A DNA stretch of 64,000 nucleotides from Roseibium aestuarii (GTDB lineage: Bacteria; Pseudomonadota; Alphaproteobacteria; Rhizobiales; Stappiaceae): contig NZ_VORA01000001.1 in assembly GCF_008477545.1 (NCBI RefSeq), positions 434,001 to 498,000 of the forward strand, written 5' to 3'. Shown piece after piece: positions 29,374-32,580 of the stretch; the first letter of the stretch is position 1, and every line of letters starts with the position of its first letter. Under the pieces are notes generated by a model, which worked only from the letters and a program-made list of their open reading frames with translations, searched no databases and was not told the DNA's origin. The position numbers and the translations under genes were made by a program.

Positions 29374-29403
29374 TTGACAAGCCCGGCACGCTGGCGCCAT
29401 ATC
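29374..29403 (+). promoter_or_regulatory. Putative promoter of the tyrS leader
   Basis: A perfect -35 TTGACA (29374-29379) is followed after 18 bp by CATATC (29398-29403), a weak -10. A start about 7 bp downstream falls at the A of the leader ATG 29410, so the leader would be translated from a leaderless or nearly leaderless mRNA. There is no Shine-Dalgarno sequence before that ATG, which agrees. Confidence 0.55.
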
Positions 29404-29409
29404 GTGGTC

Positions 29410-29475
29410 ATGACCCAGATGACCGCATCCTTCGTGTATTTTTATTACGTGACCTCCATATCGGCGGCTGCGTAG
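29410..29475 (+). CDS. Candidate aromatic-codon leader peptide upstream of tyrS
   Basis: A 21-codon ORF, ATG 29410 to TAG 29473-29475. It reads M-T-Q-M-T-A-S followed by FVYFYY, so five of six consecutive codons are Tyr or Phe (three Tyr: TAT, TAT, TAC), then V-T-S-I-S and three Ala. The AT-rich aromatic run stands out in a high-GC region. The last codons overlap the 5' arm of an antiterminator (29462-29469), and a terminator hairpin follows 26 bp after the stop codon, 52 bp before tyrS. This is the arrangement of ribosome-mediated attenuation, as in trpL and pheL. It is not long enough to be called by length; the case rests on codon content and RNA architecture. Confidence 0.65.
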   Translation: MTQMTASFVYFYYVTSISAAA

Positions 29476-29527
29476 GATCGTGTTCATCTGATCTCTCCCG
29501 AAAAGCCGCCGCGTCAGGCGGCTTTTT
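29462..29527 (+). promoter_or_regulatory. Transcription attenuator of tyrS (antiterminator/terminator)
   Basis: The terminator stem is AAAAGCCGCC (29501-29510) paired with GGCGGCTTTT (29517-29526), loop GCGTCA, T-run at its 3' end. The alternative stem pairs CGGCGGCT (29462-29469, inside the leader ORF) with AGCCGCCG (29504-29511), 8 bp perfect. The two cannot form together. A ribosome stalled on the Tyr codons (29437-29448) would leave 29462-29469 free to form the antiterminator; one that reaches the stop codon would cover it and permit termination. Confidence 0.7.
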
Positions 29528-29578
29528 CGTATGAGGCACCTGACAGGCCCCCCAGAAAGTCAGTCAGGAATGCCCGAA

Positions 29579-31036: not shown

Positions 31037-32580
<1,544 letters not shown>

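Follow-up and report, generated by a model that had tools for sequence, protein, structure and literature searches.

The tyrosyl-tRNA synthetase gene studied here (tyrS2) is an extra paralogue, the second tyrS copy of its genome, and is very probably controlled by a ribosome-mediated transcription attenuator responding to charged tRNA-Tyr. The preliminary description of the window (the whole stretch of 64,000 nt of Roseibium aestuarii DNA that was analyzed) had proposed ribosome-mediated attenuation of tyrS, and this proposal is supported by the Tyr codons of the leader, their distance to the antiterminator, both alternative helices and the conservation of the promoter. The tyrS duplication and the restriction of the leader to the extra copy had been missed, as had helix 1:2, the probably leaderless ORF, the dispensability of Phe and a conserved Shine-Dalgarno hairpin. 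The features of the locus are collected in Table 1.

Table 1. Features of the tyrS2 leader region, in window coordinates
Feature	Position	Strand	Remark
-35 element TTGACA	29374-29379	+	TTGAC kept upstream of the leader ATG in relatives
-10-like CATATC	29398-29403	+	By eye
Leader ORF, 21 codons, probably leaderless	29410-29475	+	ATG 29410, TAG 29473-29475
Helix 1:2	29447-29457 with 29463-29473	+	Possible pause/anti-antiterminator hairpin
Region 2, antiterminator 5' strand CGGCGGCT	29462-29469	+	Pairs with 29504-29511
Terminator hairpin 3:4 with U-run	29501-29526	+	Region 3 is 29504-29511
Terminator loop and start of 3' arm, GTCAGG	29513-29518	+	Complementary to region 5 CCTGAC 29539-29544
Region 5	29535-29544	+	5' arm of Shine-Dalgarno hairpin
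Region 6	29564-29574	+	Holds tyrS Shine-Dalgarno AGGA 29566-29569
tyrS paralogue (TyrRS2), 426 aa	29579-30859	+	TIGR00234

The assignment of the downstream gene as tyrS was borne out by a match to TIGR00234 at 345.8 bits (cut-off 113.8; E 3.4e-103). In the alignment, the class-I signatures HVGH and KMGKT, presumably the HIGH and KMSKS motifs, are intact. A start at 29570 had been given for the gene; 29579 is more likely, because the relatives begin at the equivalent codon. The other tyrS of the genome (G000:C11:1832512-1833765) is 49% identical to TyrRS2. Among the 87 genomes of the family, 66 carry a close relative of the window copy (65% or more identical) plus another tyrS: 45/45 in the window's genus, 5/5 in g16, 1/1 in g17 and 15/16 in g18. 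The genera g14, g15 and g19 (20 genomes) have a single tyrS only. Among the best 80 of 258 loci, those with tyrS2-like copies that bear a name belong to Roseibium/Labrenzia, Pannonibacter and Pseudovibrio.

The leader follows this extra copy. A covariance model of the leader (R1), built from 51 sequences, gave one match in the window's genome (E 1.1e-24) and matched 67/87 family genomes, which are the 66 with an extra tyrS and one (G046) with a decayed copy, while the 20 single-copy genomes of the family gave 0 matches (Infernal, stricter filters). By coordinates, 66 of the 67 leader-bearing genomes have the leader immediately before a tyrS2 that is free of internal stops. The exception, G046, is from the genus of the Pseudovibrio-like leaders; it has kept the leader (L190, minus strand, 1923-2056), its tyrS2 is reduced to a C-terminal remnant and the Tyr-Tyr adjacency of its leader is lost.

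Direct reading of the window bore out the 21-codon aromatic leader ORF, whose product is MTQMTASFVYFYYVTSISAAA, with SFVYFYYVTSISAAA* as the aromatic C-terminal part up to the stop. Its Tyr codons lie at 29437-29439, 29443-29445 and 29446-29448. In 53 of 54 distinct sequences, the distance from the start of TTGAC to the leader ATG is 34-38 nt (45 nt in the remaining one), and many relatives have CAT-containing -10-like sequences a few nt upstream of the ATG when read by eye. A simple sigma-70 consensus scan of the window reported no promoter, and the window has only a poor -10. On the basis of the TTGAC spacing and the -10-like sequences, transcription is predicted to start with the A of the leader ATG or no more than 1-2 nt away, as for trpL of Sinorhizobium meliloti, where excerpts of two papers place the transcript start at the leader ATG (PMC7298713, PMC10117765). 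The leader ORF is thus probably leaderless, like rhizobial trpL.

We kept 54 distinct sequences from 69 upstream regions. All 54 contain an aromatic leader in which two Tyr codons stand side by side. Measured from the start of the last Tyr codon, the distance to region 2 is 17 nt in 52/54 and 20 nt in 2/54, a difference of one codon. The check across relatives that the preliminary description had suggested therefore came out in favor of both the aromatic codons and the spacing. Over the first 20 codons of the leaders, Tyr is encoded by TAT 108 times and by TAC 50 times. The number of Phe codons before region 2 ranges from 0 to 3. As most Roseibium leaders contain FVYFYY, at least one Phe codon is found in 45/54 leaders and related DAHP synthase leaders mix Phe, Trp and Tyr, the leader might sense Phe, or aromatic amino acids generally, rather than Tyr. 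We consider this highly unlikely: Phe is absent from nine leaders, all from Pseudovibrio, Tyr-Tyr is universal in the set and the gene encodes a TyrRS. The earlier alternative of Tyr or Phe sensing is therefore retained for Tyr and dropped for Phe, since nine leaders lack Phe altogether.

The terminator reads AAAAGCCGCC-gcgtca-GGCGGCTTTT. Its region 3 (AGCCGCCG) can form instead an 8-bp helix with region 2 (CGGCGGCT) that excludes the terminator, and both the hairpin and the competing pairing reported earlier were confirmed in the sequence. In an alignment of 50 distinct rows, pairing is found in 95.0% of cells for helix 2:3 and in 95.8% for helix 3:4, with free variation across relatives in the spacer between the pairing elements of regions 2 and 3. 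The expected stem pairing is thus conserved, but the compensatory changes expected with it are scarce in these two helices: both sides are changed in 0/8 pairs of 2:3 and 2/10 of 3:4. Covariation proves nothing for 2:3, which has no compensated pair and for which all 500 shuffles scored as high. RNAalifold predicted 10 pairs on the 51-sequence alignment, none with both sides changed. The core helices are near-invariant, as expected when one arm has to fit two partners.

Compensatory changes are few in helix 1:2 and clearer in the downstream helices. Over the same number of distinct rows, helix 1:2 has 80.2% of its cells paired and 2/9 pairs compensated, whereas two of the nine fail to pair in most rows (37/50 and 43/50). 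A 9-bp version occurs in L068 and L079 (Pseudovibrio exalbescens). A further consensus helix (P0), between the 5' part of the leader ORF and the spacer after the stop, exceeded the average stability of shuffles in 22/22 representatives; it reached p <= 0.05 in only 9/22 against shuffled spacers and in 3/22 against shuffled ORF parts, and we therefore list it as possible only.

In four sequences (L062, L064, L075 and L080), the leader stop codon precedes region 2, and region 2 is retained all the same. Its conservation beyond the stop codon indicates that the RNA, not the peptide, is under conservation. These four of the 51 aligned sequences also lack a clear U-run, and the U-run is interrupted in the remaining Pseudovibrio sequences, which makes termination doubtful in such Pseudovibrio-type sequences. 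With their leader-proximal hairpin, the element of these four may act more through translation.

A scan for terminator-like sites detected one at the locus and, counting both strands, 6 in the surrounding 3 kb, compared to a mean of 1.1 in shuffles of this stretch. With more such sites so close by, the hairpin could be an ordinary terminator beside a meaningless short ORF. This reading is scarcely credible, as it is contradicted by the conserved ORF, the constant Tyr codon distance and both alternative helices, and by the failure to find the leader in any of the 20 family genomes that lack tyrS2.

We propose the following sequence of events for the attenuator. RNA synthesis would begin at or beside the leader ATG, and the early 1:2 hairpin would probably pause RNA polymerase until a ribosome begins the leader. 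When Tyr-tRNA is plentiful, the ribosome would reach the leader stop and cover region 2; the 3:4 terminator would then form and an RNA of ~117 nt would be released. When Tyr-tRNA is scarce, the ribosome would stall at the Tyr codons, 17 nt before region 2, leaving region 2 free to pair with region 3, so that no terminator forms and tyrS2 is expected to be transcribed. TyrRS2 likely serves as a reserve enzyme for times when charging of tRNA-Tyr by the housekeeping TyrRS falls short. This leads to the prediction that the spare TyrRS would be made only when tRNA-Tyr is under-charged, as when tyrosine runs short or an inhibitor acts on TyrRS.

Folding of these states gave the following results. 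With a ribosome stalled on a Tyr codon and an RNA ending just past region 3, helix 2:3 folds in 8/8 sequences. Placing the ribosome at the leader stop masks region 2 by design, and 3:4 is then obtained. When region 4 is present in the stalled state, 3:4 is the minimum-energy fold in 8/8 sequences; as full-length stalled folds favor 3:4, helix 2:3 would have to win kinetically. Switching in other attenuators is likewise kinetic.

The released RNA, or the peptide, might itself be the main product and act in trans, with attenuation being secondary. Such a role has a precedent in rnTrpL/peTrpL of Sinorhizobium (excerpts of PMC7298713 for rnTrpL), and G046 retains the leader in spite of its decayed tyrS2. 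The leader of G046 has nevertheless lost its Tyr-Tyr adjacency, and in every other leader-bearing genome of the family the leader adjoins an uninterrupted tyrS2, which makes a primary role in trans improbable. Control by a tRNA-binding T-box or by TyrRS autoregulation would agree with the T-box control of tyrosine genes in other bacteria described in excerpts of PMC1262725. We attach next to no probability to it; as for the T-box, neither a T-box nor any other Rfam family was found at the leader at gathering threshold, and the permissive Rfam list contained no T-box either; the best leader-type match there was Phe_leader (RF01859), at 15.7 bits and below its gathering threshold of 55. Attenuation sensing charged tRNA-Tyr is the reading we keep.

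Leader-peptide attenuation is a classical mechanism, and pheM-pheST of Escherichia coli is a case of it acting on a tRNA synthetase. To our knowledge, the attenuators of pheM-pheST, trpS and leuS are not paralogue-specific, and they differ from that of tyrS2 in the amino acid and in the phylum or class. For trpS and leuS, leader-peptide attenuation has been reported in Streptomyces (excerpts of PMC1262725). Duplicated tRNA synthetase genes with their own histidine leader peptide are described for Bacillus hisZ and hisS* (excerpts of PMC2965389); they differ from tyrS2 in being from Firmicutes and specific for histidine, and are likened to it here by description, not by sequence. The tyrZ gene of Bacillus subtilis encodes a second, specialized (spare) TyrRS according to excerpts of PMC9437257, and a title cited there places it under T-box control. 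Unlike tyrS2, tyrZ has a T-box and a MarR regulator and no leader peptide.

Also close to the tyrS2 leader is trpL-trpE(G) of Sinorhizobium meliloti and relatives, which, as far as the excerpted sources go, has a leaderless ORF and a terminated small RNA, both predicted here too, and the same kind of cognate codon run and mutually exclusive antiterminator and terminator. The tyrS2 leader differs from it in that Tyr is sensed, a duplicated tRNA synthetase is controlled and a Shine-Dalgarno hairpin is present; no such hairpin was seen by eye on two Roseibium trpE leaders. In a literature search that did not extend to most subscription journals, no previous account of a leader peptide attenuating tyrS turned up. 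The tyrS2 attenuator would do in a proteobacterium, through another mechanism, what T-box control does for tyrS elsewhere, and it links attenuation by a leader peptide with a duplicated synthetase seemingly kept in reserve.

Beyond the family, R1 gave weak matches in 7 further genomes among 397 of the order. Class-wide, it matched 4/385 genomes, the window's own included (3 further); the class-wide match L211, upstream of a glycosidase-like gene, was rejected as noise. A tyrS is preceded by the leader MIKNAPIAANYYATLP in G402 and G349 (family f44) and by MTEMMHITAVYFARLP in G672 (f156), the latter with one Tyr and one Phe and no Tyr-Tyr. A second covariance model (R2), built from 15 sequences, matched 43/297 order genomes and identified the leader MITTAPIAARYYATFP before a tyrS in G286 (f18). 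The second R2 match in the window's genome has no leader and was set aside as noise. G402, G349, G672 and G286 each carry two tyrS genes, and R2 together with an ORF scan detected no Tyr leader upstream of the other copy. In the f44 genus g76, only 2/18 genomes have an extra tyrS copy. In a tree of 53 TyrRS, a single branch (99/90) separates 12 leader-bearing rows from 41 housekeeping rows, and an earlier 77-row tree without G286 showed the same split at 81/89. This one-branch split indicates that the leader and the TyrRS lineage were inherited or moved together.

Related leaders also precede other genes. A second weak R1 match in two Roseibium genomes is trpL before trpE (MNTIRKSAWWWRRAT in L188), the attenuator that is classical for this bacterial class. 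After the R2 searches, 26 loci comprised 11 GNAT genes, 11 DAHP synthase genes, 2 prephenate dehydrogenase genes, 1 tyrS and 1 trpE. Identities were HMM-checked for 3/11 GNATs and 3/11 DAHP synthases (L252, L261, L257), the rest of these being assigned by eye, and for both prephenate dehydrogenases, the TyrRS and the trpE; from the earlier R1 matches, we checked in the same way the GNATs L187 and L209, two translations made by eye and the DAHP synthase L184. In two other families, Tyr-Tyr leaders (at about 1501) ending in TYYRPLT and SYYRTNP stand before prephenate dehydrogenase genes (L253 and L258). They are apparently Tyr attenuators of tyrosine synthesis, and since prephenate dehydrogenase serves tyrosine synthesis, their Tyr-Tyr gives independent support for Tyr sensing.

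In several families, aromatic leaders (SYWYPS., SYFWxYL, AWYFTPLT) that are probably leaderless and are followed by a terminator precede GNAT acetyltransferase genes (L183, L185-L187, L209, L242, L243, L245, L246, L248, L249, L262-L264, L266 and L267, each at about 1501). Mixed Phe/Trp/Tyr leaders (FWYFYY, YWYFSS) precede DAHP synthase genes (L184, L247, L250-L252, L254, L255, L257, L259-L261 and L265). The R1 and R2 models suggest that leader peptides are numerous in Hyphomicrobiales and in other Alphaproteobacteria.

Downstream of the terminator, hairpin 5:6 conceals the Shine-Dalgarno of tyrS. Both arms vary from lineage to lineage but stay complementary, a lineage-specific compensation. 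In the window, none of 300 shuffles reached the observed pairing (p 0). Over 22 representatives, 0/20,000 permutations paired as well as the cognate arms, both for 5:6 and for the pairing of the terminator loop with region 5 (loop:5), in tests that leave some shared ancestry in. With one representative per loop type, p was 0.0056 and 0.013 for 5:6 and 0.00125 and 0.0006 for loop:5 (the same two sets for both). Over 15 distinct loop types, loop:5 again gave 0/20,000, compared to p 0.92 and 0.63 for two control segments. Restricting the tests to lineages with tyrS only gave p 0.038 for loop:5 and 0.0033 for 5:6. Five later loci, with L244 and L253 read by eye before the test, gave p 0.039 for loop:5, the terminator being mis-picked in two of them (L258, L259). 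In the window, loop:5 is weak (6 bp, shuffle p 0.05) and its cognate partner ranks 19 of 22.

The two pairings overlap within region 5 in 21/22 representatives, and this dual complementarity suggests a linked translational gate, an extension of attenuation in which the same leader would also control translation. In the off state, region 5 would pair with the Shine-Dalgarno in region 6. In the on state, the antiterminator would free the terminator loop and arm, which would capture region 5 and open the Shine-Dalgarno. We put this two-tier switch forward tentatively, at somewhat less than even chances. Region 5 can pair with either partner, with compensation specific to each lineage, and its dual pairing is also seen on GNAT and DAHP synthase leaders. 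Against it, shuffles of each representative's own downstream sequence reach p 0.05 in only 13/22 for loop:5 and 15/22 for 5:6, and equilibrium folding gives a gain in Shine-Dalgarno openness above 0.2 in the antiterminator state in only 4/22 (L041, L210, L187 and L209), with a loss in L043 and no change in the window. As a thermodynamic test of the gate, equilibrium folding was mostly negative.

If the downstream gate is true, one ribosome stall would control both the making and the reading of the mRNA. Taken jointly, the sequence comparisons would then suggest, with the same reserve, that one stall sets transcription and translation, leaving leaky readthrough untranslated; that this is an alphaproteobacterial design of aromatic attenuators, used for tyrS2, GNAT, DAHP synthase and prephenate dehydrogenase genes; and that the tyrS2 version travels between families with a distinct TyrRS lineage.

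Near tyrS2, ccrM is found in the fetched flank of 20/50 loci and gcvPB in that of 10/50, so gene order does not explain the conservation of the leader. In the window, a gene for a CcrM-type DNA methyltransferase (31037-32164, minus strand) converges on tyrS2. A glycine riboswitch (RF00504; 23633-23724, plus strand), the only Rfam match at gathering threshold within the window, lies upstream of glycine-cleavage genes.
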